Shown one piece after another: positions 1,714 through 39,762 of a DNA stretch of 58,335 nt. This stretch comes from Pseudomonadota bacterium (GTDB lineage Bacteria > Desulfobacterota > Desulfobacteria > Desulfobacterales > RPRI01): NCBI GenBank assembly GCA_018901125.1, contig JAHIFE010000232.1, forward strand, positions 1 to 58,335. The letters are read 5' to 3'. The position numbers were made by a program, and so were the translations under genes. The number at the start of each line of letters is the position of its first letter. Position 1 is the first letter of the stretch. The notes beneath the pieces were generated by a model. It had not been told where the DNA came from. It searched no databases and saw only the letters and a program-made list of their open reading frames with translations.

Positions 1714-1869
1714 AATATCCCACTGTAATTAATAGATATCTTACCACCTCCTTTTTTTGGCACAACCTGTGCAATTACTGTCAGCTAAAAGTCTGTTTAT
1801 TTCCATATTAAATACGTAGAACATGTTTTTTTATAAACGGGACATTTCAGTTCGCTGAGGAAAATGTTT

Positions 1870-2292
1870 ATGGAGCAAGGAAACGAAATTAAAAATATTC
1901 TGGTTATCACTGATGAATTGGATATGCTCATTTTTCTTTCAAATCTTTTGCGGGCTGAGGGCTTTTCAGTTTTAGAAGCCAAAAATGGTGCGGAGGGAAT
2001 AACAAAAGCACGAAAGAACCCACCTGCTCTTATTATACTGGATGTTATGATGTCAGAAGAGTCCGGAATCCAGATATATCGTTTATTAAAATTCGACAAA
2101 CAGCTTAAAAGGATCCCGGTTATAATGCTTTCGGCAATAGACAGGGATACTTTTTCTCATTATCAGAAATTTGAAAGCAGCCAGCCAGGACAAAGCATCC
2201 CTGAACCTGAAGCATTTCTTGAAAAGCCGCCGGAAGCAGAGGAACTCATAAATATTGTGCTTGAATTGACTTCAATGGACAAAAAACCATGA
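1870..2292 (+). CDS. Stand-alone response regulator receiver protein
   Basis: This is a single CheY-like receiver domain of about 140 residues with no output domain. The phosphoacceptor is Asp58 in the motif LIILDVMM. The signalling Ser follows strand 4 (IMLSA) and the conserved Lys is in FLEKPPE; the acidic site near the N-terminus reads TDE. The ATG at 1870 is preferred to that at 1864 because GAGG at 1857-1860 is 9 bases from it but only 3 from the upstream ATG. Its stop overlaps the start of the next gene (ATGA at 2289). It is the first gene of the operon, so it probably shuttles phosphate between the two kinases at the operon end, or binds a partner directly. Partner assignment is inference. 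Confidence 0.85.
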   Translation: MEQGNEIKNILVITDELDMLIFLSNLLRAEGFSVLEAKNGAEGITKARKNPPALIILDVMMSEESGIQIYRLLKFDKQLKRIPVIMLSAIDRDTFSHYQKFESSQPGQSIPEPEAFLEKPPEAEELINIVLELTSMDKKP

Positions 2293-4586
2293 TTGATAAC
2301 TCTGTTGATCCAAAACTGTATAGTGAAATTCAAAAATTCGGAGCAATGGATATGGAGATCTGCATGCAGTGTGGTGCCTGCAGCGCATCCTGCCCTCTGT
2401 CTGAAGGCACTAATCCTTTTCCCCGAAAGATATACCGGTATCTTCAGTTAGGATTAAAAGACAAGCTTTTACAATCATCGGTGCCATGGCTGTGCTATTA
2501 CTGCGGCGAATGCAACAAGGAGTGTCCCAGAGGGGCCGAACCGGCTGAAACCATGATGGCAACCCGCCGATGGTTAACCGCACAGTATGACTGGACAGGA
2601 CTTGCCAGGAAGCTTTATCTTTCAAAAGCCTGGGAAATGGGCGCATTAATTTCTGTGGCGCTTTTTATCATTTTGCTGTTTGTTTTTTTCCACGGCCCAA
2701 TCATAACCGATCATGTATCGGTTAACTCCTTTGCGCCTGTCATGTGGATAGAAATCGGCGATTTGTTGATGGCGACAATACTTTCTACCTTTCTTCTTTC
2801 CAACGCATTCAGAATGTATCGTTTTATTATGAGTGATACAAAGGCGCCTTTATCGCTTTATGTTAAAGAAGCAAAAACATTTATTTTAAACTTTGCAACT
2901 CAGAAACGCTGGAGGGAGTGCAGTGAGGACAAAAGCCGGTGGGTGAAACACTTTATTCTTGTTACCGGATATCTCACAATGATGACGCTGATAATTGTTT
3001 TTATCCGCTGGTTTCAAGTCGATGACAGCAGCTGGCATTTTACAAGCATATTCGGCTACTACGCTACCGGTGTGCTGCTTTATGTCACAGTGGATATGTT
3101 TAGAAGCCGCATGAAAAAGCAGGAAACTATCCATCGATACTCCGAAGTTTCCGACTGGCTTTTTCTGATTCTGCTTTTTCTGACATCTCTAACCGGCATA
3201 ATTATGCACATCGTTCGTCTTGCCGGATGGCCCATGGGAACATATGTCACATACGTAATACACCTTGCTGTTGCTGTGCCTATGCTCGTAATTGAGGTTC
3301 CTTTCGGAAAGTGGTCCCACATGTTTTACAGACCGTTGGCTCTGTTTTTATCTGCTGTAAAAGATAAGGCATCAAAAATATCCGATATAGATGTACAAGA
3401 GATAATTGCCACAGTGGGCAAAACTTTTATGATCTGCCAGCAATGCGGAACCTGCACCAGCGTTTGCCCTGTCAATCTGGTATCATCATACAGCCCCCGT
3501 CATATTCTGCGTCGGCTTGCATTAAATAACGGAACCCAAAAGTCGGTTGATAAGGCTGTCTGGAATTGTTTTACATGCAATGCATGCGGCGATAGCTGCC
3601 CGAGAGGAATAGATATAATAAATGTAGTAAAGACTGTAAGAGCCCTTAATATATCTTTTGGGATAATTCCCGAATCGCTTAAAGCACCGTTTGACAGCCT
3701 GAAAAGAAACGGCAATCCATGGGATGTCGTCCGTAATAAGCGCCTGGAATGGACCGGAAATTCAGATATCAAAGCATTTGCTCCTGATCACAAATACTAT
3801 CTTTTTACCTGTTGCACAACAGCGTACAATCCGGAAAACAAAAAAGCCGGTCAGGCTCTGTTACAACTTATGGAACTTGCCGGAATAAGTTTTGGCACAT
3901 TCGGTGAAAAAGAAAACTGCTGTGGCGATCTTGCCCATAAATCGGGTGCAAACGAGATATTCTCTGATCTTTGCGTAAAAAATACCGAATTATTTTTGAA
4001 GGAAGGAGTTAAAACAATACTTACCACATCGCCTCATTGTCTTAATTCTTTTAAAAACGACTACCCTGATTTAAAAGATTTGAGTTGTGAGCACTACACA
4101 GAGCTTCTCGACCGGCTGATATCAAAAGGCCGCCTTATACCTTCTGGCAGAATTGAATCAACTGTCACATATCATGATCCATGCTATCTGGGACGGCATA
4201 ATAATATTTACGAAGCGCCCCGTAGGATACTTCAAAGCATCCCGGGTCTTAAGCTGTTTGAGATGGGAAACAACAGAGAAGGCAGTATTTGCTGCGGTGG
4301 TGGCGGCGGAGGTGCATGGAATAAAGCAAATGACCATAAAGACGATCAGAATCTTAGTATGTTGCGAATAGAAGAAGCGCTTAGCACAGGCGCTGAGATG
4401 ATCGTAACAGCATGCCCGTTTTGCATCCTCATGCTAAATGATGCGATAGATAAACTTGGCGTAAAACATAAGTTAGCTGTTTATGATCCTGCACAATTAC
4501 TGCTGCAATCTGTAAACCTGGGATATAAAGTTGATATGATGGATAATATCAAAACAAACTATAGTAGTGAGGTCTGCCATGTCTGA
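2289..4586 (+). CDS. Membrane HdrC/HdrE/HdrD-type iron-sulfur protein
   Basis: The 765-residue electron-transfer protein has this domain order: an HdrC-like double 4Fe-4S domain (first motif CMQCGACSASC from Cys25; second CYYCGECNKEC), a cytochrome-b-like membrane region of about five or six helices (about residues 115-340), a second double 4Fe-4S domain (CQQCGTCTSVC and CFTCNACGDSC), and an HdrB/HdrD-like C-terminal part with two CCG-type cysteine motifs (KENCCGD and GSICCGGGGG). The layout resembles QmoC or HdrE joined to HdrD, so it should link a membrane quinone or heme pool to a thiol/disulfide or Hdr partner. The usual family members are split over two genes. It overlaps the receiver gene by 4 bases and the following HdrA by 8, which indicates translational coupling. 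The physiological substrate is unknown. Confidence 0.85.
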   Translation: MIDNSVDPKLYSEIQKFGAMDMEICMQCGACSASCPLSEGTNPFPRKIYRYLQLGLKDKLLQSSVPWLCYYCGECNKECPRGAEPAETMMATRRWLTAQYDWTGLARKLYLSKAWEMGALISVALFIILLFVFFHGPIITDHVSVNSFAPVMWIEIGDLLMATILSTFLLSNAFRMYRFIMSDTKAPLSLYVKEAKTFILNFATQKRWRECSEDKSRWVKHFILVTGYLTMMTLIIVFIRWFQVDDSSWHFTSIFGYYATGVLLYVTVDMFRSRMKKQETIHRYSEVSDWLFLILLFLTSLTGIIMHIVRLAGWPMGTYVTYVIHLAVAVPMLVIEVPFGKWSHMFYRPLALFLSAVKDKASKISDIDVQEIIATVGKTFMICQQCGTCTSVCPVNLVSSYSPRHILRRLALNNGTQKSVDKAVWNCFTCNACGDSCPRGIDIINVVKTVRALNISFGIIPESLKAPFDSLKRNGNPWDVVRNKRLEWTGNSDIKAFAPDHKYYLFTCCTTAYNPENKKAGQALLQLMELAGISFGTFGEKENCCGDLAHKSGANEIFSDLCVKNTELFLKEGVKTILTTSPHCLNSFKNDYPDLKDLSCEHYTELLDRLISKGRLIPSGRIESTVTYHDPCYLGRHNNIYEAPRRILQSIPGLKLFEMGNNREGSICCGGGGGGAWNKANDHKDDQNLSMLRIEEALSTGAEMIVTACPFCILMLNDAIDKLGVKHKLAVYDPAQLLLQSVNLGYKVDMMDNIKTNYSSEVCHV

Positions 4587-7500
4587 TAGAATCGGATTTT
4601 ATATCTGCCATTGCGGCATAAATATAGCTTACAAAGTTCGTGTAAAAGAAGTAGCCGAATACGCAGCTACTCTTCAAAATGTTGCGGTTTCGCGCGATTA
4701 CCTGTTTATGTGTTCAGACCCCGGACAGGAACTTATAGAAAATGATATCAGGCAGCATCATCTAACCCGGGTAATAGTATCATCATGTTCACCCAGGATG
4801 CATGAAAAAACGTTTCGCGCCGCATGCCAGAGGGGCGGTCTTAATCCTTATAAAGCCTTTCATATGGTATGTGTCCGCGAACATGTTTCATGGGTAACGG
4901 AAAATGAAGATGAAGCAACCAAAAAGGCGATAGAATTAGTCAGGGCTGGCATAATGAGGGTTACCCACCAGCATGAACTGACACCTGCCACTTTTTCGGT
5001 TTGCACCAACACCCTTGTTGTGGGCGGAGGTATCGCTGGCATGCAGGCCTCCCTTGATATAGCCAAAGCCGGATATAAAGTCTATCTTGTGGAAAGACAA
5101 CCTACAATCGGCGGGCATATGCTTCAATATGACAAAACCTTTCCCACTCTTGATTGCGCGGCCTGCATCGGCACACCCAAAATGGTTTCCGTCGGTCAGG
5201 AACAAAAAATAAAATTACTCACTTACTGCGAGGTTCAAGATGTAAGCGGCTTTGTCGGCAATTTTAAGATAAAAGTAAAAAGAAAAGCCCGCTATGTGGA
5301 AACAAACTGCACCGGGTGCGGCGAATGCGAAAAAGTCTGTCCTGTCGAGTTTACAAATGAATGGGATGTAAACACCAAAATCAGAAAGGCTATATACAGA
5401 CCATTTCCCCAGGCAGTTCCCATCACATATTGCATCGACAAGTATGACCGCGCTCCCTGTGCTCAGACCTGTCCTGCAGGAACAAATGTTCAGGGCTATG
5501 TAGCTCTCATCAAAGCAGGAAAATTCAAAGAAGCCTTGAATTTAATTATGGAACGCCTGCCACTGCCTGGAACTCTGGGCCGCGTATGTCCGGCTCCTTG
5601 CGAAAAAGCCTGCCGGAGGGCTGAGGTGGACACAGCTGTTGCCATACGCGATCTGAAGCGCTTTGCAGCAGATCAAACTGACCTTTCCATGTTGCCTCTG
5701 CCGGATATCAAAGATCTGCCGGATAAAGTAGCGGTTATCGGATCAGGCCCGGCAGGCCTTACCGTGGCATATTATCTAAGGCTTAAAGGCTACCAGGTAA
5801 CTATTTTTGAGGCACTGCCAGTTTTAGGAGGCATGCTTCGCTTAGGCATACCGGATTATCGGCTCCCGCCGGAAATTCTTGATAAGGAAATCCAGAATAT
5901 TCTTCGTCTTGGCATAAAAGTACAGACTGAAAAAAAACTGGGAATAGATTTTAGTATTGATGATCTCAAAAACGAGGACTTTAAAGCAATCTTTCTTGGA
6001 ATCGGCGCTCATAAAAGTCTTAAACTGCAAATACCTGGTGAAGAAAGCTTGGATGGGGTAATTGACGCAGTGGATTTTTTAAAAAAAGCGAATCTGGGAA
6101 ACGTAGAAAAGCCGGGTGATCGTGTGATAGTAATCGGCGGAGGCAATGTAGCTATTGATGCGGCCAGGTCGGCATTGCGGATAGGTTCAAAACAGGTGGA
6201 TATTATTTATCGCCGCAGTCGCGAACAGATGCCTGCTGATCCTGAAGAAATCAGGGACGCAATGGAAGAAGGAATCAAAATACATTATCTAACATCACCA
6301 GTCGCCATTAAAGGAAACGGCGGCAGAGTGAATGCAGTTGAATGTATCAAAAACGAACTCGGTTTGCCTGATGCAAGCGGACGAAGCAGACCTGCTCCTG
6401 TTGAAGGATCGGAGTTTGTGATTGAATGTGATGCGGTTATACCGGCAATAGGGCAACAGCCCGATGTTGACTGGATTGTTAAAGATAAACTTGTAGAAGT
6501 TTCAAAACGAAATACTATTATTGTAAATCCGCAGACAATGCAGACAAATGTATCTTATATATTCGGCGGAGGCGATGCTGTTAGCGGTCCGGCAACTGTT
6601 GTAGAGGCAATATCCGCGGGTCACAAAGCCGTTGAAGCGATTCATTTTTATCTTTGCAATGATAATCCTGAGACTTTAAGCCAAAGCATGCTCTTACAGG
6701 AAGCACCCGGGAACAACTGGGCCGGGATACCTGAATACGCCAGAATAACAGACAGGGTTAAACCACAGCATCGCGATGTCAAAGATCGTATTACTTCATT
6801 TAAAGAAGTGAGTTTAAGCTTTGCAGAACAGGAAGCACAAGCGGAAGCTTCCCGCTGCATAAATTGCGGCGGTTGCTGCGAATGCAAGCTTTGTGTTGAT
6901 TCCTGCGAAGCAAAAGCTATCAATCACAACATGAAAGATGAAATAGAAGAAATAGAAGCCGGATCAATTATTGTAGCAACAGGTTTTGATCCGCTAAATC
7001 CAACGCCCATGCATCAGTACGGTTATGGCAAGTATTCAAATGTTTTTACCAATCTTGAGTTTGAACGAATTTCGAATGCGACCGGACCAACAGGCGGAAA
7101 ACTGCTTAAACGAAGTCTTACCAATCGCCTGAAGTTTACGGAACCTCCGAAAAGTGTCGCTATTCTTCATTGCATAGGCAGCCGCGATATTAATTTTCAC
7201 GAGTACTGTTCGCGCACCTGCTGCATGTACGCGCTAAAATACGCCCATCTTATCAAAGATAAATGCGGGCACGATACAGAAGTATACAACTTCTACATAG
7301 ATATGCGCTGCTTTGGCAAAGGATATGAGGAATTCTACAAGCGCGTACAAAGTGAGGGGGTACGCATGATTCGCGGCAAGGCATCACGGATTGAAGAGAA
7401 AAACGGTATCCTTACAGTTACTGCCGAAGATACTCTTTCCGACAGAATATTAAAAATTCCGGTTGAGATGGTTATCTTGTGTACAGCCATGGAACCGCGT

Positions 7501-7959
7501 TCAGACGCAAATGAAATATCACGTACATTCGGGATAAGTGTCGGCAGTGACGGTTTCTTTCTTGAGGAACACCCAAAACTCGAACCTGTTTCCACTGCTA
7601 CGAGTGGTATTTTTCTGGCCGGGACATGCCAGGGCCCGAAGGATATTCCGGATACGGTTGCACAAGCCAAGGGAGCAGCAGCAGAGGCTCTGGCATTAAG
7701 TATATCAGGGCGAGTGGCGGTATCTCCCATGATTTCATATATCAATCCGGATATATGTGTAGGCTGCCAGGTTTGCATAGATTTGTGCGCCTATTCGGCA
7801 ATCGAATTTAATGAATTAAAAGGCATAAGCGAGGTTAATGAAGCTGTGTGCAAAGGCTGCGGAAGCTGTGCAGGTTACTGCCCAAGCGGTGCTGCCCAGA
7901 TACGGCATTTTACAGGCAAGCAGATATTTTCTGAAATTGATGGTCTTCTTGCGGGATAA
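4579..7959 (+). CDS. HdrA-like flavoprotein with inserted GltD-like module
   Basis: The 1126-residue protein has an HdrA framework: the N-terminal HdrA domain (ICHCG), an FAD motif GGGIAGMQAS near residue 148, and a 4Fe-4S motif CTGCGECEKVC from Cys244. A complete glutamate-synthase-small-subunit-like (GltD/NfnB) module follows at about residues 280-690, with its own CPAGT segment, FAD motif GSGPAGL near 387 and NAD(P)-type motif GGGNVAIDAA near 520. HdrA then resumes with a cysteine-rich cluster (CINCGGCCEC near 760), the FAD tail and two C-terminal ferredoxin motifs (near 1061 and 1092). HdrA is the bifurcating subunit in known Hdr complexes; the insert would supply NAD(P)H oxidation. The ATG at 4579 is chosen over GTG 4567, as gtgagg lies 6 bases upstream. 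The electron donors and acceptors are inferred. Confidence 0.87.
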   Translation: MSDRIGFYICHCGINIAYKVRVKEVAEYAATLQNVAVSRDYLFMCSDPGQELIENDIRQHHLTRVIVSSCSPRMHEKTFRAACQRGGLNPYKAFHMVCVREHVSWVTENEDEATKKAIELVRAGIMRVTHQHELTPATFSVCTNTLVVGGGIAGMQASLDIAKAGYKVYLVERQPTIGGHMLQYDKTFPTLDCAACIGTPKMVSVGQEQKIKLLTYCEVQDVSGFVGNFKIKVKRKARYVETNCTGCGECEKVCPVEFTNEWDVNTKIRKAIYRPFPQAVPITYCIDKYDRAPCAQTCPAGTNVQGYVALIKAGKFKEALNLIMERLPLPGTLGRVCPAPCEKACRRAEVDTAVAIRDLKRFAADQTDLSMLPLPDIKDLPDKVAVIGSGPAGLTVAYYLRLKGYQVTIFEALPVLGGMLRLGIPDYRLPPEILDKEIQNILRLGIKVQTEKKLGIDFSIDDLKNEDFKAIFLGIGAHKSLKLQIPGEESLDGVIDAVDFLKKANLGNVEKPGDRVIVIGGGNVAIDAARSALRIGSKQVDIIYRRSREQMPADPEEIRDAMEEGIKIHYLTSPVAIKGNGGRVNAVECIKNELGLPDASGRSRPAPVEGSEFVIECDAVIPAIGQQPDVDWIVKDKLVEVSKRNTIIVNPQTMQTNVSYIFGGGDAVSGPATVVEAISAGHKAVEAIHFYLCNDNPETLSQSMLLQEAPGNNWAGIPEYARITDRVKPQHRDVKDRITSFKEVSLSFAEQEAQAEASRCINCGGCCECKLCVDSCEAKAINHNMKDEIEEIEAGSIIVATGFDPLNPTPMHQYGYGKYSNVFTNLEFERISNATGPTGGKLLKRSLTNRLKFTEPPKSVAILHCIGSRDINFHEYCSRTCCMYALKYAHLIKDKCGHDTEVYNFYIDMRCFGKGYEEFYKRVQSEGVRMIRGKASRIEEKNGILTVTAEDTLSDRILKIPVEMVILCTAMEPRSDANEISRTFGISVGSDGFFLEEHPKLEPVSTATSGIFLAGTCQGPKDIPDTVAQAKGAAAEALALSISGRVAVSPMISYINPDICVGCQVCIDLCAYSAIEFNELKGISEVNEAVCKGCGSCAGYCPSGAAQIRHFTGKQIFSEIDGLLAG

Positions 7960-7979: not shown

Positions 7980-8402
7980 ATGAGCGAGTTTGAACCGACA
8001 ATTGTGGCTTTTTTTTGCAACTGGTGTACTTTCACTGCTGCGGATTTAGCTGGTACTTCTCGTCTGTCATACCCACCTAACATAAAAATTATTCGGGTGA
8101 TGTGTACCGGCATGGTTGACCCGCAATATATCATTAAAGCCTTTCTGGAAGGCGCTGATGGTGTGCTGGTCAGCGGCTGCCATCCGGGCGACTGCCATTA
8201 TATTAATGGAAACTATAAGGCTCGAAGGCGGATTAAGCTATTAAAAGAAATTCTTCCTCAATTCGGCTTTGATTCAAAGCGGTTAAGATTAACATGGATA
8301 GGTGCCAGCGATGGAATTCGTTTAGCGGAGATTATGAGGACTCTTGTTTCGCAAATCAAAGAGCTGGGACCCAGTCAATCCAAGTTAAGTATGGTGATTT
8401 AG
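7980..8402 (+). CDS. mvhD: MvhD-like iron-sulfur subunit
   Basis: The 140-residue protein matches the delta subunit of methyl-viologen-reducing hydrogenase (MvhD/FlpD family), which carries a [2Fe-2S] centre and passes electrons to HdrA. Conserved features are FFCNWCTF at residues 10-17, VMCTGMVDP near 43, and GCHPGDCHY near 63-71. The length is normal for the stand-alone family. It follows the HdrA-GltD gene by 20 bases with a gaaagga site upstream. No hydrogenase large or small subunit is in the operon, so its electron source is more likely the FdhB/FrhB-like or GltD-type partner encoded beside it. Confidence 0.88.
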   Translation: MSEFEPTIVAFFCNWCTFTAADLAGTSRLSYPPNIKIIRVMCTGMVDPQYIIKAFLEGADGVLVSGCHPGDCHYINGNYKARRRIKLLKEILPQFGFDSKRLRLTWIGASDGIRLAEIMRTLVSQIKELGPSQSKLSMVI

Positions 8403-8420: not shown

Positions 8421-9566
8421 ATGACGGTTACGGCAAAAATCGATGTGAAAAATCAGGATATATCAGAATCGATAAGAAAGTTATTGGAAGATATTCTTAA
8501 GACTGAAATTATCCAGGCGATTCTGGTATCGCAGCATCTTCCGATGAAAAAAATGGTCATGCCGACACTGGTTACTGATCCGGATCATCTGGACGGGATT
8601 GATCCTTTAGCGCCGGCTTTTCCTGTAAATGCAGCAACAATTGCAGCCCGGCTTACCCGTAAACCAATTGGAGAAAAGATAGCGGCTGTATTACGTCCCT
8701 GCGAGATCCGCGCTTTTATTGAACTGGTAAAGCTGAACCAGGCCAAAAGGGGAAATATAATATTAATAAGCGTAGATTGCCCTGGCGCATTTCAAAATAA
8801 AGATTATTTAAAATTTGCCGGACAAAACCCTAAAGAAGCAACTCTTCGATTTTATAAAAAAGTTATGGACGGAAATGCTGTTGAGGTGGAAGGAGTTGAA
8901 CTTGCCACAGCCTGCAAGGCATGTGAATATCCGGTTTCTGAAAATGCTGATATCCAGATCGGCTTATATGGTATGAAGACAGATGAATCCATACTGGTTA
9001 AGGCTCAAACTGAAGCAGGAGATCATATTTTAAAACAAATTAATCTTAGCGCAACAAATGAACCGGCTGCAAGACAAACTGCCATCAACAGCCTGATCAC
9101 AAAGCGCTCAAGCTTTCGGGATGAGATGTTTTTAAAAACAACTGAAACTACAAACAGCCTGGAGAAAATATCTTCTTTCTTTGCTTCTTGCGTCAACTGC
9201 TATAATTGCCGTGTTGCATGTCCGGTTTGTTATTGCAAAGAGTGTGTTTTTGTTACTGATGCATTTAACCATGATTCTTTCCAGTATATAAGTTGGGCAA
9301 AGAAAAAAGGGATCATTAAAATGCCTACCGATACACTTTTTTATCATCTTACACGTTTGACTCATATGAGCACGGCATGTGTCGGCTGCGGCCAGTGTTC
9401 AAATGCGTGCCCGAATGATATTCCCATTATGGAGCTGTTTCGAACCATAGCCCATGTTACCCAAAAGGCGTTTGATTATCAGGCAGGAAAAAGCATTGAA
9501 CAAAAGCCTCCGCTGTCAATATTTTGCAAAGATGAATTTCAAGAAGTAGTAGGGATAAACGATTAA
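8421..9566 (+). CDS. FdhB/FrhB-like 4Fe-4S electron-transfer protein
   Basis: The 381-residue protein resembles the beta subunits of F420-reducing hydrogenase and F420-type formate dehydrogenase (FrhB/FdhB C-terminal family), often found with HdrA and MvhD in anaerobes. A middle region carries LRPCEIRAF and SVDCPGAF, and there is an ACKACEYP cysteine pair. The C-terminal third has two cysteine clusters, CVNCYNCRVACPVCYC and CVGCGQCSNAC, consistent with at least two 4Fe-4S centres. The ATG at 8421 follows GGAGGG by a few bases. Whether it binds a flavin and oxidises F420, NADH, formate or only relays electrons cannot be told from sequence. Confidence 0.75.
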   Translation: MTVTAKIDVKNQDISESIRKLLEDILKTEIIQAILVSQHLPMKKMVMPTLVTDPDHLDGIDPLAPAFPVNAATIAARLTRKPIGEKIAAVLRPCEIRAFIELVKLNQAKRGNIILISVDCPGAFQNKDYLKFAGQNPKEATLRFYKKVMDGNAVEVEGVELATACKACEYPVSENADIQIGLYGMKTDESILVKAQTEAGDHILKQINLSATNEPAARQTAINSLITKRSSFRDEMFLKTTETTNSLEKISSFFASCVNCYNCRVACPVCYCKECVFVTDAFNHDSFQYISWAKKKGIIKMPTDTLFYHLTRLTHMSTACVGCGQCSNACPNDIPIMELFRTIAHVTQKAFDYQAGKSIEQKPPLSIFCKDEFQEVVGIND

Positions 9567-9575: not shown

Positions 9576-12500
9576 ATGGCCCCAAAAAACGGTAAAGCCC
9601 TGGTGGTTGGCGCCGGAATAAGCGGTATCCGCGCAGCTCTGGATCTGGCTGAATACGGATATGGTGTAACTTTGATAGACACGTCGCCCAATATCGGCGG
9701 CATACTAAGCCAACTGGACTATCAGTTTCCAACTGACAGTTGCGGAATGTGCAAAATGCTGCCTCTTTTCAACAGAGATGAAGGCTCACAATATTGCCTG
9801 CGTAAAGGCCTGTTTCATGAAAATATTGAAATACTTCTGTCAACCGATCTTATATCCGTGGAAGGCGAAGCCGGTCAATTTAAGGCTACAGTAAGGCAAC
9901 ATTTAAATTGGGTTGATCCTAAATTATGCACCGGATGCGGTTATTGCGCAGATGTCTGCCCGGTAGACATACCGGATAAATTCAACGAGAATATCGGCAC
10001 TCACAAAGCTGTTTATCTGCCTGTTCCTCATGCCATACCTAACCCGTATATAATCGACTTTGCTTCTTGCACACGTTGTGGGGCCTGCATAAAAGCTTGC
10101 CCGACCGACGCAATTAAATTACCGCAGGATAAACGCAATTCTTTTCATATACTGGTGGTAGATGATGAGTTGGTTATGCGCGATTCTTTAAAGGAATGGC
10201 TTACGGAAGAGAGATTTTCCGTAGATATGGCCGCTTCAGGTTCGGAAGCTCTCGATATGCTGAAAGCTAAACCATATGATTTGATGCTGCTTGATATCAT
10301 GATGCCGGGCATGGATGGCGTTGAAGTACTCCAGAAAGCTAAAGAGAATTTTGCTGATCTGAATGTTATAATGATGACAGCATATGCAACTGTGGAAACC
10401 GCTGTTGAAGCCATGAAAATAGGGGCTATGGATTATCTGGTAAAGCCCTTTGACCCTGATGCATTGACACCGATGATCCTGCGGATATTTCAGGATGCTG
10501 ATGGTGCTGCTGAAGACAGGCAGATAGAAGTCGGTGCGCTTGTGCTTTGCAGCGGAACCGGCTTTTTTGATCCGGGCAGCGGGAAAAACCCTTTTGGTTA
10601 TAAGACCTACCCTAATGTTGTAACAAGTCTTGAATTTGAACGCATGATCAGCGGAACCGGGCCCTGCCAGGGAAAGCTGCTGCGTCCTTTTGATGGAAAA
10701 CCCGTAAAAAAAGCTGCCTGGATACAGTGCGTCGGATCGCGCGATTTACAAACCGATGCGGATTTTTGCACCGGGATCTGTTGTATGTTTGCAATCAAGG
10801 AAGCGGTGATTGCAAAGAAGACAAGCGATCAAAATATAGAAACGACAATTTTTTATATGGATATGAGAACATATGGCAAAACGTTTCAGCGGTATCGTGA
10901 CCAGGCTAAAAACATATATGGTGTTAATTTTGCGAGAGAAAGAATTCATTCCGTGATCCAGGATATGGCTACGGGAGATTTATTGATAAAAAGTGTGGAT
11001 GTATCCGGCAATTCAAAAGAAGATAGATTTGATCTTTTGGTTCTTGCTGTCGGGCAAAGACCGGCGGAAGGAATGTCAAAACTGGCTGAATTGGCAGAAC
11101 TAGCGTTGAATGAATGGGGTTTTGGAAAAACTGGGCCTTTTTCGCTGGCCAAAACAAGCCGGGAAGGAATACTTCTTGGCGGTTCTTTAACAGGCCACAA
11201 AGATATAGGCGATTTGCTTATACAGGCGTCATCGGCAGCTGTAAATGCTTCACGTTTTATTCATTCCAAAGGCGGCGACCTTTCAACAGAGCACACGCTT
11301 TATCATCCTCCAAGCGGTGTGATGAAAGAAATACCTAAAATACTTATCGTTATCTGCACATGCGGCAACAGGTTTTTGCAATTGGCGGATTCAGACCATA
11401 TTGCCGGACAACTTAAAGCCGACCCCTTGATTGATAAAGTGGTATTTTCAGAAAAACTATGTACCGATCAGGGCTTGGGAAATCTTGTTGAACTGGTAAA
11501 AGAAATTACTCCCAATCGACTTCTTATTGCTGCATGTCTTCCCTATGTATACAAACTTAAAGCTAAGAAGCTTGGTAACGAGATCGGGCTTGATCCGGCT
11601 CTCATAGAAATCGTTGATATAAATACAGGCTATTCCCATTTGCTTAACCCTAATGCTTGTTATGAAGAAAATAAGACCGAAATCTTAGATGAGGAAAGCT
11701 CATCTGCGTCAACACATCACCTGCTTTCTATAATTGAAACAGGCATAGCAAAACTTAAATGGGCGGATGCATCAGAAACACCCAAAGTTTCCGTTTGTCA
11801 GAAAACGCTTGTTGTCGGAGGCGGAATAGCAGGTATGACGGCTGCCTTAGCGATTGCCGACCATGGATTTGAGGTTGATCTTGTGGAGCAATCCGAACAA
11901 TTAGGCGGAAATCTGAATTGGCTGAAACGAACATTGGACGGACATAGCGCAAATGAATTATTGAAAAATACACTTGAGTCTGTAAAAAAACACCCGAAGA
12001 TTAATATACACACCCAATCCGAAGTTATTAATTCTGCTGGTGAAGCAGGAAATTTTCATACTGAAGTTAAAGATCCGCAAAATCAGATTCATACTATAGA
12101 ACATGGCGTAACAATTTTAGCTACCGGAGGTTCACAAGCTCCAACTCAATCTTACTGTTATGGAACAAATCCGGCTATAATCACCCAGAAGGAACTGGAG
12201 ATAAAACTTTCGGATAATACGATTGATCCTGAAAAATTACATTCGGTAGTAATGATTCAGTGTGTTGATTCCCGGGAAGAACCGCGCAACTACTGTAGTC
12301 GTGTTTGCTGCGCCAATGCTTTAAAACACGCACTTTGTATTAAAGATAAAAATCCAAACGTCTCAATATATATTCTTTACCGGGACCTGATGGCATACGG
12401 TTTTTATGAAGCTTATTATACTCAGGCCAGAAAAGCCGGAATTGTATTTATTCAGTACAGCACTGATGACAAACCATTGGTTGAGATTGAAAATAACGAA

Positions 12501-13043
12501 CTAAGCCTTTCAGTATTTGAACCAATCCTGGGAAAACGGCTGCAAATCGAAACCGACATAGTAGTTTTAGCCACAGGTATTGTTCCGAATATATCTCAAA
12601 ATCTGGCGGATATGTTTGGCGTATCACTTGATCAGGACGGTTTTTTTCAACAAGCCGAATCGAAATGGAGACCGGTGGATTCACTTAAAGAAGGAGTGTT
12701 TGCATGCGGTTTGGTTCATTCTCCCCGCAATATCGCAGAAACCATTGCCACAGCCGAAGCTGCTGCTCAAAGAGCGCTTGGAATAATAAGTCATAAATAT
12801 CTTACAGGAAGCAGAATCACGGCATCCGTTCATCATAGTAATTGCGCCTTGTGCGAACAATGCATTAACGCATGTCCCTATGGGGCCCGTACTGTTGATT
12901 ATGATAACGAACGGATTTTTGTTAATCCGGGCATCTGTCAGGGATGCGGTACATGTGCTGCCGTCTGCCCCAACAGCGCGAGTGTGCTGGATGGATTTAT
13001 AAAACAGCAAATGCTTGCAATAATTGATGTAGCCACAGGTTAA
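9576..13043 (+). CDS. Double HdrA flavoprotein with embedded receiver domain
   Basis: The 1155-residue protein contains two HdrA-like units. Unit 1 begins with FAD motif GAGISG and has 4Fe-4S motifs CTGCGYCADVC (Cys118) and CTRCGACIKAC (Cys165). A whole response-regulator receiver domain is inserted at about residues 190-310: acidic pair Asp196-Asp197, phosphoacceptor Asp240 in LLDIMMPGMDG, Thr268 in MMTAYA and Lys290 in YLVKPF. The FAD domain then resumes. Unit 2 starts near 590 with an HdrA N-terminal domain (ICTCG), has GGGIAGM near 749 and ends with two ferredoxin motifs (Cys1090 and Cys1121). The reading frame is unbroken, so the insert is a true fusion. The ATG at 9576 is preferred to GTG 9570, which is inside the AGAGG site. 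The kinases follow immediately. Phosphorylation control of electron transfer is my inference. Confidence 0.88.
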   Translation: MAPKNGKALVVGAGISGIRAALDLAEYGYGVTLIDTSPNIGGILSQLDYQFPTDSCGMCKMLPLFNRDEGSQYCLRKGLFHENIEILLSTDLISVEGEAGQFKATVRQHLNWVDPKLCTGCGYCADVCPVDIPDKFNENIGTHKAVYLPVPHAIPNPYIIDFASCTRCGACIKACPTDAIKLPQDKRNSFHILVVDDELVMRDSLKEWLTEERFSVDMAASGSEALDMLKAKPYDLMLLDIMMPGMDGVEVLQKAKENFADLNVIMMTAYATVETAVEAMKIGAMDYLVKPFDPDALTPMILRIFQDADGAAEDRQIEVGALVLCSGTGFFDPGSGKNPFGYKTYPNVVTSLEFERMISGTGPCQGKLLRPFDGKPVKKAAWIQCVGSRDLQTDADFCTGICCMFAIKEAVIAKKTSDQNIETTIFYMDMRTYGKTFQRYRDQAKNIYGVNFARERIHSVIQDMATGDLLIKSVDVSGNSKEDRFDLLVLAVGQRPAEGMSKLAELAELALNEWGFGKTGPFSLAKTSREGILLGGSLTGHKDIGDLLIQASSAAVNASRFIHSKGGDLSTEHTLYHPPSGVMKEIPKILIVICTCGNRFLQLADSDHIAGQLKADPLIDKVVFSEKLCTDQGLGNLVELVKEITPNRLLIAACLPYVYKLKAKKLGNEIGLDPALIEIVDINTGYSHLLNPNACYEENKTEILDEESSSASTHHLLSIIETGIAKLKWADASETPKVSVCQKTLVVGGGIAGMTAALAIADHGFEVDLVEQSEQLGGNLNWLKRTLDGHSANELLKNTLESVKKHPKINIHTQSEVINSAGEAGNFHTEVKDPQNQIHTIEHGVTILATGGSQAPTQSYCYGTNPAIITQKELEIKLSDNTIDPEKLHSVVMIQCVDSREEPRNYCSRVCCANALKHALCIKDKNPNVSIYILYRDLMAYGFYEAYYTQARKAGIVFIQYSTDDKPLVEIENNELSLSVFEPILGKRLQIETDIVVLATGIVPNISQNLADMFGVSLDQDGFFQQAESKWRPVDSLKEGVFACGLVHSPRNIAETIATAEAAAQRALGIISHKYLTGSRITASVHHSNCALCEQCINACPYGARTVDYDNERIFVNPGICQGCGTCAAVCPNSASVLDGFIKQQMLAIIDVATG

Positions 13044-13087: not shown

Positions 13088-14599
13088 ATGTTGGAAAAAA
13101 CCAGTATAAAAAGATCCGGGTTAAACATACAGCAAAGTGAATACCAGACTTTGTTTGAACTGGTTCCATGCCTGATAACAATTCAGGACAGGGAATTCAG
13201 GCTTATTCGCTACAATCATCTGTTTTCAGATCATTTCCATCCTGAACCTGGGGCTTATTGTTACCAGGCCTATAAGAACAGAAATTCAAGATGTGAAAAA
13301 TGTCTGGTGGCTATGACTTTCGATGACGGGAAATCACATTATGGAGAAGAATCCAGCACTAATGTTGATGGTTCTGTTACTTATTGGATTGCCTATACTT
13401 CTCCTTTAAAAAACGAAAAAGAAGATATTGTGGCTGTTATGGAGGTTTGCCTTGATATAACACACAGAAAAGAACTTGAAGAGAACCTGGAAAAATCCGA
13501 AAAAAAATATTACTCCATATTTAACAACATGCCCAATCCAATGTTTGTACTCGATATAGATACACTAAAGATTTTGGACTGCAATGAAAGCGTCACGACG
13601 GTTTATGGATTTACGAAAGAAGAAATAATCAATAAATCATTTGTAGATTTCTTTCCTGATGATGAAAAAAACAGCTATGGGCTGAAGATGAGAGCATATT
13701 CGTCTTTAAACAAGGTTAAGCAGTTAAAGAAAGACGGTAAAGCAATTTTTGTAAATATAAGAATAGCGCCTTCGGAATATCCCGGCCAGAAAGTTATGCT
13801 TGTTACAACAAGCGATATAACACAACGTCTTGAAGTTGAACAGCAGCTCATACAGGCCGGGAAAATGGCGACACTTGGTGAGATGGCCACAGGAATCGCT
13901 CATGAACTTAACCAGCCGCTTTCCGTTATTAAAACCGTCAGCAGCTTTTTCATTAAAAAGATAAGCAATCATGAAGCTATATCTGAGTCCACGCTTAACG
14001 ATATGCTGATTAAAATTGACAACAATGTAGATAGGGCTTCGCGTATTATTAATCATTTGAGAAATTTCGCCAGAAAATCGGAAGTGATTTCTGTTAAGGT
14101 ACAGGTAAATGAAATACTTGAAAGGGCTTTAGCGATATTTTCCCAGCACCTTAAAATAAGAGGAATTGATGTTTTATGGGATGTTGAAAATACTTTACCC
14201 ATGTTTTTGGCCGATCCGGACAGGCTTGAACAGGTTTTTATAAATCTTCTTGTTAACGCCCGTGATGCAATCGAAGAAAGATGGAAGCATACGGAACCCA
14301 TGCCGGGAGATAAAAGAATTATTATAAAAACCTTCCGTGAAATAAATAATATTAAAATTGAAATATGCGATACCGGAATAGGAATACCGAAGAATATTTT
14401 AGAAAAAATATTTGAGCCATTTTTCACTACAAAAGATGCAGGAAAAGGCACCGGCCTTGGTTTATCAATAAGTTATGGAATAGTAAAAGATTTTGGCGGT
14501 TCCATTAAGGCCGTATCGGAAGAAAACAATGGAGCCTGTTTTACAATTACCTTCCCAATACAGGATAAACAAGATGGAAAAACAAATACTGCTGGTTGA
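13088..14599 (+). CDS. PAS-domain sensor histidine kinase
   Basis: The 503-residue cytoplasmic-looking kinase has no membrane segments. Two PAS domains lie at about residues 18-135 and 140-255. The first holds the cysteine pattern Cys58-x10-Cys69-x2-Cys72 (RCEKC), which could sense redox state or bind metal. The HisKA domain has His272 in [10 protein letters not shown], and the ATPase domain shows [15 protein letters not shown] and GTGLGLS. AGGAG lies 14 bases before the ATG, a long spacing. It starts 44 bases after the HdrA-receiver gene and overlaps the next gene by 26 bases. The likely phosphotransfer targets are the receiver inside HdrA, the receiver at 1870 and the downstream hybrid; specificity is not shown by sequence. 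Confidence 0.9.
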
Positions 14600-15698
14600 T
14601 GATGAAGAAGATATCCGTGATGTTCTTGGCGTTTATCTCAAAGACCAGGGTTATAAAGTATTTATGGCGGGAAACGGCGAAGAAGCATTAAAGATATTTG
14701 CAGAACATAAAGCGCCTATAGTACTTTCCGATATTAAGATGCCTGGAATAGACGGGATTGAGCTGCTTAAAAGAATCAAACAGGATAATCCCGATACCGA
14801 ATTTATCATGATAACCGGTCATGGCGATATGGATCTTGCCATAGCAAGCTTTCATGACCAGGCGGCGGATTTTATCACAAAGCCGATAAACGTTAATATC
14901 CTGGATATTTCGCTTAAGAAATTGCAGGAAAAGATAAAAGGCCGCAGGCAATTAAGAGAATACACTGAAAATCTTGAAAGATTGATAAAAGAGAAATCCG
15001 AACTCCAGAGTCATTTGTCTTCTCTGGGACTAATGATCGGATCTGTTTCCCATGGCATAAAAGGACTGCTTACCGGTCTTGACGGCGGTATGTATATGGT
15101 TGAGTCAGGCTTTTCTAAATCGAATACCGCCCAGATCGACGAAGGCTGGACAATCGTAAAATTGATGGTTGACCGTATAAGAAAAATGGTCTTGGATATT
15201 CTTTATTATGCAAAAGAAAGAAATCTTAACTGGGAAAAAGTTGAAGTATTGAGTTTTGCCAGAGAAGTTGCCGATATAATGGAGCGAAAGATCTCTTCTC
15301 ATGGTATTGAATTAATACGTGATTTTAATAAGTTATCCGGAAATTGTAAAATTGACACAGGATACATCAATTCCGCTTTGATCAATATTTTTGAAAATGC
15401 GGTTGATGCATGCATCAATGATAAATTAAAAGAAAAGCACCAAATATCATTTAAGATGTCTCAGGATAAAGATAATATTTATTTTGAAGTAAGCGACAAT
15501 GGAATAGGTATGGACAGAGAAACACGTGACAAACTCTTCACATTGTTTTTTTCATCAAAGGGAAGCAAGGGAACAGGGCTGGGTCTTTTTATTTCAAATA
15601 AAATAATAGAGCAGCACGGAGGTTCAATTAAGGTGTTTTCAACGCCAGGACAAGGGTCAAAATTTACGATAAATATTCCAAAATTAATGCCTTCATAA
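14574..15698 (+). CDS. Receiver-histidine kinase hybrid protein
   Basis: The 374-residue protein has a receiver domain first: acidic pair DDEED, Asp53 in VLSDIKMPGIDG, Thr in MITGHG, Lys in FITKPIN. A coiled-coil linker of about residues 120-150 follows, then a kinase with a diverged histidine box (His160 in GSVSHGIKGLL) and an ATPase domain (NIFENAVDA, DNGIGMD, GTGLGLF). The receiver-first order is that of phosphorelay intermediates rather than DNA-binding regulators. The start ATG at 14574 lies inside the upstream kinase gene with AGGA 8 bases before it, indicating translational coupling. The longer frame from 14493 has no support. No transcriptional output domain occurs anywhere in this operon. 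Confidence 0.88.
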   Translation: MEKQILLVDDEEDIRDVLGVYLKDQGYKVFMAGNGEEALKIFAEHKAPIVLSDIKMPGIDGIELLKRIKQDNPDTEFIMITGHGDMDLAIASFHDQAADFITKPINVNILDISLKKLQEKIKGRRQLREYTENLERLIKEKSELQSHLSSLGLMIGSVSHGIKGLLTGLDGGMYMVESGFSKSNTAQIDEGWTIVKLMVDRIRKMVLDILYYAKERNLNWEKVEVLSFAREVADIMERKISSHGIELIRDFNKLSGNCKIDTGYINSALINIFENAVDACINDKLKEKHQISFKMSQDKDNIYFEVSDNGIGMDRETRDKLFTLFFSSKGSKGTGLGLFISNKIIEQHGGSIKVFSTPGQGSKFTINIPKLMPS

Positions 15699-18736: not shown

Positions 18737-19537
18737 TTACAAAGATACATTGTAGTGCTGCATGATAGCTTCGAGAACACTTCCACCTATAGCCCTTGCT
18801 TTTTCTGTTATAGTATGGCAGTAATCCTTATCGCCTCTGGGATCGATATCTCCTACCTTTTCCTTTCCCACAACCTCAATCTCACGTATAAGACCTCGCA
18901 ATATGCCATCGATAGATGCATACACAGGAGTTTCGTTCACAAAGAGAATAAGATCGCCTTTCTTGACTTCATCTCCCATGTTTTTGCTATGCTTTATCAT
19001 GCCACTATGTGGGGCACGCAATACCCGTTCTTTAGTAAATCCCATTGTGGGACCTGGAATGCCTGTGTGGGGTTCAGCTGAACCCTTGTATATAAGTCTG
19101 CCAAGGTTATGCCCTCTGTTGCTTTCAATTATAATATGCGCATTCTCGGAAGCAGTAAAGCCGGGTCCGACGCCGATAACTAAAGGAGCTTCATCGATTA
19201 TAGTATTTGTATTTCGCTTTGTCATAATTGCATCGACTATCACATCCGGCTTTATCTCATTTATAATTTTCCATGAAGGATCAACTATTACAGCAATATT
19301 TTTTCTTCCCCATACTTTATAGACTTCATCAAATTTAACTATATATTCGGCCTTTATGCCTTCAACTTCTTTTTTACTATCATACACAGCCCCAGAAAAT
19401 GCAACGGCTCTTCGCACAGTAATCGGCTTTGGAATCTCTGTCATAACTATTTTTTTAAGATTTGACATATACAGTCTGCAAGCAATGCCGGTGGCCATCT
19501 CACCAGCGCCCTTTATCACTATTTTAACATCTTTCAT
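18737..19537 (-). CDS. yqeB: YqeB-like selenium-dependent molybdenum hydroxylase accessory protein
   Basis: The 266-residue protein matches the EF2563/YqeB family, linked by genome context to selenium-dependent molybdenum hydroxylases. An N-terminal Rossmann start reads [17 protein letters not shown] central segment has DAIMTKRN and VIGVGPGFTASEN. The C-terminal part is lipoyl/biotinyl-like with APHSGMIKH and GDEVKKGDLILFV. The ATG at 19537 is preceded by gaggagg. An aldehyde-oxidoreductase-type molybdenum enzyme is encoded at 31.8-35.7 kb, a possible client, though not adjacent. The intergenic region upstream carries a GTTGCATATATGC inverted repeat. Confidence 0.8.
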   Translation of the reverse strand: MKDVKIVIKGAGEMATGIACRLYMSNLKKIVMTEIPKPITVRRAVAFSGAVYDSKKEVEGIKAEYIVKFDEVYKVWGRKNIAVIVDPSWKIINEIKPDVIVDAIMTKRNTNTIIDEAPLVIGVGPGFTASENAHIIIESNRGHNLGRLIYKGSAEPHTGIPGPTMGFTKERVLRAPHSGMIKHSKNMGDEVKKGDLILFVNETPVYASIDGILRGLIREIEVVGKEKVGDIDPRGDKDYCHTITEKARAIGGSVLEAIMQHYNVSL

Positions 19538-31730: not shown

Positions 31731-31792
31731 ACCGGTTAATGTCTGAAATTCAGAGTCACAAATACTTTTTTACCCTTAAAAAGGAGCCGGTA

Positions 31793-32410
31793 ATGGAAGA
31801 AGACAACAAAAATAAACATATCCACTTGACCCGCCGCAGCTTTTTCAGCACCATGGGCATGGGCGCTGCCACTGTGGTTGCTTCGAATAATCTTGCTGCA
31901 TGGGCTTCCGAAGAGAATAAGGTTATGGACCCGACGGAACCGACCAAAATCACACTGAAGATTAATGGCCAAACCCATCGTATCCTTGTGGAGCCTCGCT
32001 GGTCGCTGCTCTTTGTTCTCCGTGAACACCTTGGCCTTAGCGCAGCCAAAACAGGTTGTGAAAGGGGTGAGTGTGGCGCCTGCACTGTCCTAATCGATAA
32101 TGTGCCTCGCTATGCCTGCATGACTCTTGCTGTGGAGGCCCAAGGCACTGAGATTGTTACACTGGAAGGTCTTATGAAGGGTGAAGAGCTTGGCCATGTA
32201 CAACAGGCCTTCCTGGAACAGGATGCCTTCCAGTGCGGCTATTGCACGCCCGGGCAAATCATGGCTGCCGATGGCCTTCTTAGAAGCAATCCTAAACCAA
32301 CGGATGGCGAGATTCGGAAAGGGATGAGCGGAAACCTTTGCCGATGCGGTGCTTACCACAACATCTTTCAGGCTGTTAATCGCGCGGTCGAACTTAAGGG
32401 AGGTGGATGA
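31793..32410 (+). CDS. paoA: Periplasmic aldehyde oxidoreductase, 2Fe-2S subunit (PaoA-like)
   Basis: The 205-residue subunit has a twin-arginine signal: LTRRSFFSTMGMGAA near residue 11, cleavage expected after the alanine-rich segment. The plant-type [2Fe-2S] domain has CERGECGACTVLID, and the second [2Fe-2S] domain has QCGYCTPGQI and GNLCRCGAYHN. The export signal and domain order match PaoA (YagT) of the molybdenum aldehyde oxidoreductase PaoABC, which is carried across the membrane as a folded complex. The ATG at 31793 is chosen over 31739 because aaggag lies 6 bases upstream. The next gene starts at the stop. Confidence 0.88.
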   Translation: MEEDNKNKHIHLTRRSFFSTMGMGAATVVASNNLAAWASEENKVMDPTEPTKITLKINGQTHRILVEPRWSLLFVLREHLGLSAAKTGCERGECGACTVLIDNVPRYACMTLAVEAQGTEIVTLEGLMKGEELGHVQQAFLEQDAFQCGYCTPGQIMAADGLLRSNPKPTDGEIRKGMSGNLCRCGAYHNIFQAVNRAVELKGGG

Positions 32411-34740
32411 TGAAACAGGATGAAAAAGGCGTGTATTATGCAAAAGATATTTTTGTCACCGAAACGCCGGAGCCCGGAAAAGATCCGAAACCCTGGGGCA
32501 AAACAGCTGTGATTGGAAAATCGCAATCACGCATAGATGCCTATGAACGGGTCAGCGGAACCGCTGTCTATCCTTCCGATTTATCCTTACCCAACATGCT
32601 ATACGGCGCCATCCTTCGCTGCCCTCATCCTCATGCCATAATTAAAAAAGTGGACACAAGCAGGGCGAATAAAATGCCGGGTGTCCTTGCCATAATCAGT
32701 GCAGCAACTTCGGAAGCCGATATCTACTGGTCTTACTCTAAAGATGTGAAGACTAAGCTTTTTGATCCACACTGCCGCTTTGAAGGAGAAACAATAGCTG
32801 CTGTGGCGGCCCAAACACCTTATCAGGCATCCGATGCTTTACGCTCCATCCAGGTGGATTATCAAATTCTTCCTTATATTGTGGATGAGCAAAACGCCCT
32901 GGAATCCGGTGCCACCAAGGTGCACGAAGGCGGAAATCTTGTAAAACCTGAAGAAACATATTTTAGAGGGGATATAGAAAAAGGCTTTGCACAGGCGGAT
33001 GTGGTACTTGAAGAGTCCTACCGAACTGAATGTCAAGTGCATACTCCGATGGAACCACACGGTTGTGTTGCTTATTGGGACGGCGATCTTCTGGTCATTC
33101 ATGAATCCACACAAGGTGTCTATAGCGTGCAAAGCAACGTTGCTCAGACCCTGGGTTTGCCCCTATCCAAAGTACGCGTCATTGGTCATTACATGGGTGG
33201 CGGATTCGGCAGCAAGCTTGTGGCCGGAAAGTACACGGTAATTACCGCCTTGCTCGCCAAGAGAACAGGCAGACCGGTCAAGCTTTTCCTTACCAGGGAA
33301 GAAACATATCTTTGCACAGGCAACAGGCCGCCTGCCAACATGACCCTGAAAGCCGGGGTGAAAAAGGACGGCACCCTCACGGCGCTGGATTTTTCCGTAA
33401 CCGGAACAGGCGGCGCCTATCCGGCAGGAGGCACCGCTCTGGTGGACTGGCTAATAAAAGATCTCTATACCTGTCCCAACGTCAGCACAAAAGCAACTGA
33501 CGTTTATATCAATACAGGTCCGGCACGCCCCTTTCGCGCTCCCGGACATCCTCAGGGCGCCTGGGCTCTTGAGCAAATGATGGATGCCCTGGCAGAAGCT
33601 GTTGGCATAGATCCCGTTCAATTGCGGCTTAAAAACATTCCTTCTTACAGTCAGGCACGAGAAGGCAACCCGCCTTATACGACAACAGGCCTTAAGGATT
33701 GTCTGGAGCAGGGAGCGCAAGCCTTTCGCTGGAATGAGAGAAAAAAAGAAATAGAAGGTTTCAATTCATCAAAGCATCTTAGAAGAGGTGTGGGAATGGC
33801 AAGCTGTCTTTGGATTGCAGGTGGAGGCGGACCTCCCTCAACAATCATATTAAAGCTTTTTTCAGATGGCAGCGTAAATCTTAATATGGGGGCAAGCGAT
33901 ATCGGAACCGGTACCAAAACGGTTATGGCCATGGTGGTGGCTGAAGAGTTGAATGTAAGAACTGAAATGATACAGATCGAGCATGCGGATACAGGCACCA
34001 CTCAATACGCTACGCCCAGCGGCGGGAGCAAGACTGTTCCCACAGAAACACCTGCAGTTAGATCAGCAGCTATTAATATAAAACAGCAGCTTCTTCAGAT
34101 GGCTGCCGATGATTTAAAAACACAAGTTTCCACTTTGCATTTCAATGGAGATGAAATCGTTGCCAAAAATGATAATTCCATAAAGATAAAGATCAGTGAA
34201 ATTTCCGGCCTTAAAAAACGGGGTGTAGTTGTCGGAATAGGCTACCGCGGACCTAACCCTGAAGGCAAAGTGGTTAACCCCTTTGCGGCACAGTTTTGCG
34301 AAGTGGAAGTAAACACAAAAACAGGAGAAGTTCGAATCATAGATTTTCTTGGTGCCAATGATAGCGGCCGTGTTATGGATCGCTTAACTTATGATAATCA
34401 GGTTTATGGCGGGATTACCATGGGCATTGGATTTGCCATGACCGAAGTTCGCATCCTTGACAGCAACGATACCGGTAAGATGTTGAACAGAAACTGGCAT
34501 GACTACAAGTTGCCCACTGCTCTGGATATGCCACCCCACATGGAATCTTTACCCATAGATCTGCCCGATACTGAGGCAAACATCACCGGAGCAAAGGGTC
34601 TGGGTGAACCGGTTACCATTCCCACGGCTGCTGCTATTGCCAACGCGGTCTACCACGCCACTGGTGTTCGAATCAGGAAAACACCTCTAAATCCCACGCA
34701 GCTCAGCATGATTTTTTCTGAGCATTTAAAGGAGAAATAA
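32410..34740 (+). CDS. paoC: Aldehyde oxidoreductase, molybdenum-binding subunit (PaoC-like)
   Basis: The roughly 776-residue large subunit of the xanthine oxidase family binds the molybdopterin cofactor and oxidises the substrate. Visible landmarks are GKSQSRIDAYERVSGTA at the N-terminus, HYMGGGFGSKL, RPFRAPGHPQGAWALE, GASDIGTGTKTVMAMVVAEEL, and the active-site glutamate in GAKGLGEPVTIPTAAA. The protein has no signal of its own and would ride on the Tat signal of the small subunit. ATG 32410 has a GGGAGG site 6 bases upstream; ATG 32407 is also possible. Gene order small-large-FAD differs from the E. coli pao operon. Substrates are probably aromatic or aliphatic aldehydes, inferred from family. 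Confidence 0.88.
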   Translation: MKQDEKGVYYAKDIFVTETPEPGKDPKPWGKTAVIGKSQSRIDAYERVSGTAVYPSDLSLPNMLYGAILRCPHPHAIIKKVDTSRANKMPGVLAIISAATSEADIYWSYSKDVKTKLFDPHCRFEGETIAAVAAQTPYQASDALRSIQVDYQILPYIVDEQNALESGATKVHEGGNLVKPEETYFRGDIEKGFAQADVVLEESYRTECQVHTPMEPHGCVAYWDGDLLVIHESTQGVYSVQSNVAQTLGLPLSKVRVIGHYMGGGFGSKLVAGKYTVITALLAKRTGRPVKLFLTREETYLCTGNRPPANMTLKAGVKKDGTLTALDFSVTGTGGAYPAGGTALVDWLIKDLYTCPNVSTKATDVYINTGPARPFRAPGHPQGAWALEQMMDALAEAVGIDPVQLRLKNIPSYSQAREGNPPYTTTGLKDCLEQGAQAFRWNERKKEIEGFNSSKHLRRGVGMASCLWIAGGGGPPSTIILKLFSDGSVNLNMGASDIGTGTKTVMAMVVAEELNVRTEMIQIEHADTGTTQYATPSGGSKTVPTETPAVRSAAINIKQQLLQMAADDLKTQVSTLHFNGDEIVAKNDNSIKIKISEISGLKKRGVVVGIGYRGPNPEGKVVNPFAAQFCEVEVNTKTGEVRIIDFLGANDSGRVMDRLTYDNQVYGGITMGIGFAMTEVRILDSNDTGKMLNRNWHDYKLPTALDMPPHMESLPIDLPDTEANITGAKGLGEPVTIPTAAAIANAVYHATGVRIRKTPLNPTQLSMIFSEHLKEK

Positions 34741-34741
34741 T

Positions 34742-39749: not shown

Positions 39750-39762
39750 CAGGAGGAATGTG

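Follow-up and report, generated by a model that had tools for sequence, protein, structure and literature searches.

An apparently undescribed HdrA variant of sulfate-reducing bacteria with a receiver domain inside the presumed bifurcating subunit

Can a receiver domain of a two-component system sit inside an HdrA flavoprotein, and what would it do there? The question is raised by one gene, here called HdrA-REC-HdrA (REC for receiver), in a 58,335-nucleotide stretch of a Desulfobacterales genome (contig JAHIFE010000232.1 of assembly GCA_018901125.1, positions 1 to 58,335), referred to below as the window. The control of electron bifurcation in anaerobes is largely open and is usually sought at the level of transcription; a receiver in the bifurcating subunit would, if true, be a direct and fast control point in abundant sulfate reducers. 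The original prediction, made from the window sequence alone, described such a fusion and proposed a control role for the receiver. Our analysis points to a real and widespread HdrA variant, apparently undescribed, in which the receiver likely has a control role.

The frame of HdrA-REC-HdrA is open, as predicted, from the ATG at 9576 to the stop codon at 13041–13043, with no internal stop (1155 aa). A ribosome-binding-site-like AGAGGTG lies directly 5' of the ATG, and a GTG at 9570 is an alternative start. The two predicted HdrA units are both present in the chain, not as full copies but as complementary halves (Table 1). Unit 1 comprises a flavin adenine dinucleotide (FAD) domain, the inserted ferredoxin domain and C59 (the equivalent of Cys197 in the methanogen HdrA 5odc), without the N-terminal or C-terminal domain. 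Unit 2 carries the N-terminal domain and the C-terminal ferredoxin, lacks the inserted ferredoxin, and by sequence has no cysteine at the place equivalent to Cys197. Conservation was followed in 110 sequences, 69 with an intact receiver from Desulfobacterales and 41 with a decayed receiver from a second order of the phylum. C59, E355 and K408 of unit 1 are kept in all 110; in unit 2, E875 and K917 are present in the window protein, the glutamate being found in 101 and the lysine in 106 of the sequences. The 5odc counterparts of the unit 1 pair, E356 and K409, are key residues for flavin-based bifurcation (PMC12054007). Keeping these bifurcation-linked residues, HdrA-REC-HdrA is presumed to be a candidate for flavin-based bifurcation. 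The inserted ferredoxin of HdrA is a polyferredoxin binding site and the anticipated electron exit (PMC12350162; PMC9012536), and the receiver adjoins this domain in the chain. In respect to the NCBIfam HdrA equivalogs NF040770 and NF041778, the protein scores 651.5 and 534 bits, below the curated cut-offs of 1100 and 1400, respectively, so it is a relative and not an equivalog. It is also a variant and not a plain member of the fused type II HdrA, in which only a ferredoxin is inserted, because of its additional 125-residue receiver insertion.

The receiver is recognized by several independent measures. The Pfam model Response_reg (PF00072) matches residues 192–300 with 113.6 bits (cut-off 30.2, E-value 6.9e-33). 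Query residues 185 and 311 both align to residue 313 of 5odc_A (in the segments 7–185 and 311–496), which means that 125 residues (186–310) are inserted and no HdrA residue is lost. The AlphaFold2 model, built from 13 sequences (predicted local distance difference test, pLDDT, 73; predicted template modelling score, pTM, 0.72), shows a (beta-alpha)5 fold at 191–309. In VIA-align, residues 188–312 match solved receivers with Z of 20–21 and a root-mean-square deviation (rmsd) of 1.3–1.7 Å, and residues 1–567 match the HdrA 8rwn over 387 residues (Z 26, rmsd 2.6 Å), so the HdrA core appears intact around the insert. The predicted receiver of about 120 residues, between the ferredoxin insert and the second FAD part of unit 1, is thus found at residues 190–306 by Pfam, alignment and model, and has the expected fold. 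The phosphorylation residues D196, D197, D240, T268 and K290 are all where they had been placed, and they are invariant, together with the switch residue Y287, in the 69 Desulfobacterales homologues, every one of which keeps the phosphoacceptor. Among these sequences the pairwise identity is 0.69 in the receiver and 0.56 in the FAD part after it, and the pocket and switch elements are the most conserved parts of the receiver. By sequence, the phosphorylation machinery of HdrA-REC-HdrA is complete and intact.

The HdrA/REC junction was found in 74 of the 194 sampled Desulfobacterales genomes, within a conserved operon (HdrL-MvhD-FrhB-HdrA/REC with HdrBC or HdrF); the genomes span many families and include several single-contig assemblies, one of 8.03 Mb. 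Of the 395 genomes sampled across the phylum 15 carry it, and so do 45 of 199 in the second order, which is probably the Desulfovibrionales. Looking beyond the Desulfobacterota with two REC-derived patterns, receiver–HdrA fusions came, among the matches listed, only from Desulfobacterales-type metagenome-assembled genomes, and the other inspected matches were ordinary NtrC-type or stand-alone regulators. By these counts, many sulfate-reducing bacteria carry a predicted intact receiver inside a presumed bifurcating HdrA. That the fusion is an artefact (a sequencing error joining two genes, a mis-assembly, or a recent neutral insertion in a single strain) is practically beyond belief, and nothing in the data spoke for it. 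The insert is not limited to one assembly, and artefact, chance and chimera were all rejected by the recurrence in the 74 genomes of the order, single-contig assembly included, by the further genomes of the phylum, by the 69/69 conservation and by the single split in the tree described below.

All 41 homologues of the second order retain the insert, and none of them has the full phosphorylation set: the acidic pair is altered in each, 25 carry Gly or Ser in place of D240, and the usual residue at the T268 position is Ala. The entropy of the acid pocket, phospho-loop and alpha4 is 0.02–0.5 bits in the intact receivers, versus ~2 in the decayed group. The trend is opposite for alpha5, whose entropy falls from 1.86 in the intact receivers to 1.13 in the decayed ones; no other helix of the decayed insert is as well conserved. 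None of the unit 1 cofactor residues varies among the 110 sequences, decayed group included, which makes the decayed proteins look functional as enzymes. The contrast between the two groups argues that phosphorylation may matter where the set is kept. Of separate note, the decayed group (loci L194–L196 and L226–L263) has a strongly conserved alpha5 motif, fVPWLDKlymRi.

The neighbourhood of the gene differs between the two groups as well. Of the 57 resolvable intact loci, 49 have a histidine kinase on the same strand no more than 4 kb downstream, versus 10 of 40 decayed loci (Fisher p ~1e-9, for lineages that are not independent), and none of the adjacent kinases of the decayed loci is an orthologue of HK1, the first kinase downstream in the window. 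In Desulfobacterales, an HK1-family kinase is encoded in 67 of the 74 genomes with the fusion and in 44 of the 120 without it. A kept site with kinases nearby, as opposed to a decayed site without an adjacent orthologous kinase, fits a working phospho-switch.

Receiver-less relatives help to place the origin of the insert. Six operons without a receiver, spread over the families f93, f79 and f23, show the order HdrA/HdrL-MvhD-FrhB-tandem HdrA with a clean junction. In a tree calculated without the insert, one branch splits the receiver-bearing from the receiver-less proteins (Shimodaira-Hasegawa-like approximate likelihood-ratio test, SH-aLRT, 99), and the decayed group forms one clade (100) nested within the intact ones (88); the root was placed on the receiver-less side by assumption. 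The simplest reading of this tree would be one gain and one decay of the receiver. Among the intact sequences the receiver distances track the HdrA distances (Spearman 0.67), as for vertical inheritance. In f93 (L295, 4189–5065, and L296) two CheY-like receivers, each a protein of its own, and a HAMP/PAS kinase are encoded directly downstream of the receiver-less operon. This is a link of the Rosetta-stone type, and it suggests that the separate receivers in f93 may act on the same enzyme.

How could the receiver act on the enzyme? With confidence a little better than even, we favour a phospho-controllable fused HdrA, in which phosphorylation of the receiver by nearby kinases would alter electron flow near the low-potential exit. 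HK1 and/or the second kinase, RRHK, would phosphorylate Asp240 (HK1 most likely, perhaps with a relay via RRHK or the small receiver). The Thr268/Tyr287 switch would rearrange the alpha4-beta5-alpha5 face, presumed to be packed on HdrA, which could move the neighbouring inserted ferredoxin, the presumed low-potential exit, or alter how accessible it is. Ferredoxin reduction would thereby rise or fall compared with the HdrBC/HdrF branch, with the effect going either via catalysis or via docking of external ferredoxin. A more far-reaching form of this proposal, which we find rather doubtful, is that the two-component system directly gates bifurcation: receiver phosphorylation would toggle between ferredoxin-reducing and non-bifurcating flow without transcription, and the Desulfovibrionales-type relatives would have lost the switch and would run a constitutively set enzyme. 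The control role that had originally been proposed for the receiver is partly supported by these comparisons of sequences and gene neighbourhoods.

Several observations weigh against a phospho-controlled enzyme. The 10 decayed loci counted above still have some kinase within 4 kb, and 8 intact loci are without one in that distance downstream. The HK1 family is also found away from the operon, in the 44 fusion-less genomes and in genomes of the decayed lineage, and an exclusive pairing of HK1 with the fusion was rejected on account of this wider occurrence. The decayed receivers are one clade, and the coincidence of a lost site with a missing kinase therefore counts as one event; the match of lost sites and lost kinases as many independent events was rejected on the same tree. 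Moreover, the confidence of the structural model is moderate (pLDDT 73).

Phosphorylation might instead control assembly or location, with the receiver docking HdrBC/HdrF, the stand-alone receiver or another partner, and the kinase picking the partner. Across the variant operons the same HdrA-REC-HdrA is paired with membrane HdrF or with soluble HdrC and HdrB, which makes partner choice plausible, and the conservation of alpha5 in decayed homologues without the phosphorylation set points to a binding role of the alpha5 face. The receiver lies, however, beside the presumed ferredoxin exit and not at the entry through MvhD and the C-terminal ferredoxin as described (PMC9012536), and we consider control of assembly unlikely. 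It is also improbable, in our estimate, that the signal runs in reverse, from the redox state of HdrA to the phosphorylation lifetime of the receiver (a trigger enzyme), or that the receiver is a phosphate sink. Two other receivers (at 1864–2292 and within 14493–15698) and two kinases in the cluster make a phosphate-sharing network possible, but the conserved cluster core contains no DNA-binding output regulator, and the site was lost in one order while the enzyme and its chemistry were kept, as expected from lost regulation of an enzyme. Both of these explanations also use phosphorylation and are not separable by sequence from phospho-control of electron flow.

In the case of a mainly structural receiver, a spacer or stabilizing module whose phosphorylation has little effect, the retention of the fold-bearing insert in 41/41 second-order homologues despite the decayed phosphorylation set would be readily understood. 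Such a module is nevertheless very improbable: a spacer needs none of the phosphorylation residues that are invariant in 69/69 homologues, nor the strong conservation of pocket and switch, and relatives without a receiver have this operon too, which makes a spacer dispensable. For the favoured phospho-control, the intact, degenerate and receiver-less operons, together with the lineage that has the receivers as separate proteins, are natural controls.

HdrA-REC-HdrA resembles several known systems in part. Type II HdrA is a fusion of two HdrA with two thioredoxin-reductase domains (PMC12054007), and fused, self-pairing HdrA 3/4 occur in anaerobic methanotrophic (ANME) archaea (PMC9012536). As in both, one chain holds two FAD domains, and in the window protein each of these has the equivalents of E356/K409; the protein also shares with them the complementary N-terminal domain and Cys197 equivalent and an operon with MvhD and FrhB/FdhB-like proteins. 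It differs from them by carrying a receiver and by lying in sulfate-reducing bacteria. Compared with ANME HdrA 3/4 the order of the units is reversed: the Cys197 equivalent is in the N-terminal unit and the N-terminal domain in the C-terminal unit. HdrL, or type III HdrA, likewise has an extra domain in this ferredoxin lobe, namely GltD or NfnB inserted into the ferredoxin domain (PMC2702500, PMC9012536, PMC12054007), and the operon itself encodes an HdrL. In HdrL a catalytic, NAD(P)-binding flavoprotein domain lies within the ferredoxin domain, whereas in HdrA-REC-HdrA a regulatory receiver follows that domain. Within a single operon the ferredoxin lobe of HdrA has thus taken up two different inserts, GltD in HdrL and the receiver in the fusion. 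The methanogen HdrA (5odc, 8rvy, 7bkd) have the same domain order of the FAD core and the same cofactor residues (E-values down to 1e-110, Z 26–30), but are single units of ~650 aa that form homodimers and have no receiver.

The attachment of receivers to metabolic enzymes is a general trend (PMC5847659). HdrA-REC-HdrA is like the response regulators with enzymatic output in having a receiver joined to an enzyme, and unlike them in that the receiver interrupts a catalytic FAD domain, here of a redox enzyme that is a candidate for electron bifurcation, and is not attached at an end. The fusion of a receiver with a flavoprotein had originally been called unfamiliar; the HdrA host and the mode of insertion do appear new, while the receiver–enzyme principle was already known. 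No description of a receiver inside HdrA was found in the searchable HdrA and sulfate-reducer literature, where the HdrA insertions or fusions described involve GltD/NfnB and MvhD (subscription papers and preprints were outside the search). Automatic annotations of HdrA–receiver proteins surely exist.

The order HdrL-MvhD-FrhB-fusion is near constant among the relatives, and the output partner is either a membrane HdrF encoded upstream, as in the window, or soluble HdrC and HdrB encoded downstream. HdrL, MvhD and FrhB would form the electron input of the operon, and HdrBC or HdrF its electron output. In the second order, with the decayed receivers, a plain HdrA of ~680 aa replaces HdrL. HK1 of the window is without the N-terminal transmembrane/HAMP part of its relatives (~770 aa), and a Cys-rich stretch of 15 residues in its first PAS domain could serve in redox sensing or cofactor binding.

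Table 1. Features of HdrA-REC-HdrA and of the neighbouring genes (positions in the window).
Feature	Position	Strand	Basis or remark
HdrA-REC-HdrA, fused 'type II' HdrA with inserted receiver	9576..13043	+	1155 aa
FAD (thioredoxin-reductase-like) domain 1, first part (residues 5–110)	9588..9905	+	C59 = Cys197 equivalent of 5odc
Inserted ferredoxin domain, two 4Fe-4S motifs (residues 111–185)	9906..10130	+	Pfam, 5odc_A alignment
Insertion versus canonical HdrA (residues 186–310), receiver proper at residues 190–306	10131..10505	+	Pfam, alignment, model, structure match
Phosphoacceptor Asp240 codon	10293..10295	+	invariant, 69 intact homologues
FAD domain 1, second part (residues 311–570)	10506..11285	+	E355/K408 (= E356, K409 of 5odc), cluster C385/C398/C402/C403
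HdrA N-terminal domain of unit 2 (residues 587–700)	11334..11675	+	5odc_A alignment, structure match
FAD domain 2 (residues 740–1077), without inserted ferredoxin	11793..12806	+	Pfam, structure match
C-terminal ferredoxin domain (residues 1083–1155)	12822..13040	+	Pfam, 5odc_A alignment
Stand-alone CheY-like receiver, head of cluster	1864..2292	+	first acidic residue replaced by Thr; nearest NCBIfam model, DVU0259 family
HdrF-type membrane protein (QmoC-like part and HdrC/HdrB CCG domains)	2289..4586	+	profile matches
HdrL, HdrA with GltD/NfnB-like NAD(P)-binding insert in ferredoxin domain	4567..7959	+	profile matches; PMC2702500
MvhD (FlpD family) [2Fe-2S] subunit	7980..8402	+	profile matches
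FrhB/FdhB-like subunit with ferredoxin motifs	8421..9566	+	profile match
HK1, AtoS-like sensor kinase (two PAS, HisKA, HATPase)	13088..14599	+	profile matches
RRHK, N-terminal receiver and histidine kinase catalytic domain	14493..15698	+	profile match

A few further observations concern the rest of the window and related genomes. The window encodes a complete asrABC (anaerobic sulfite reductase, 37939–40770), all three genes scoring over the curated cut-offs, as well as YqeB, a selenium-dependent molybdenum cofactor protein (18737–19537, minus strand, above cut-off), and a molybdenum hydroxylase operon (31739–35719, plus strand) with an XdhA-like match below the cut-off. In one Desulfobacterales locus (L057 of genome G054) the fusion is divided between two frames (435 and 715 aa), and a TGA lies in frame close to the receiver; the cause may be a sequencing error, selenocysteine or a real break. 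The genome of the window (G000) has many further clustered HdrA copies on contigs C13, C16, C96, C106 and C192, and several of its further HdrA copies have an in-frame TGA in the matched stretch, possibly encoding selenocysteine.

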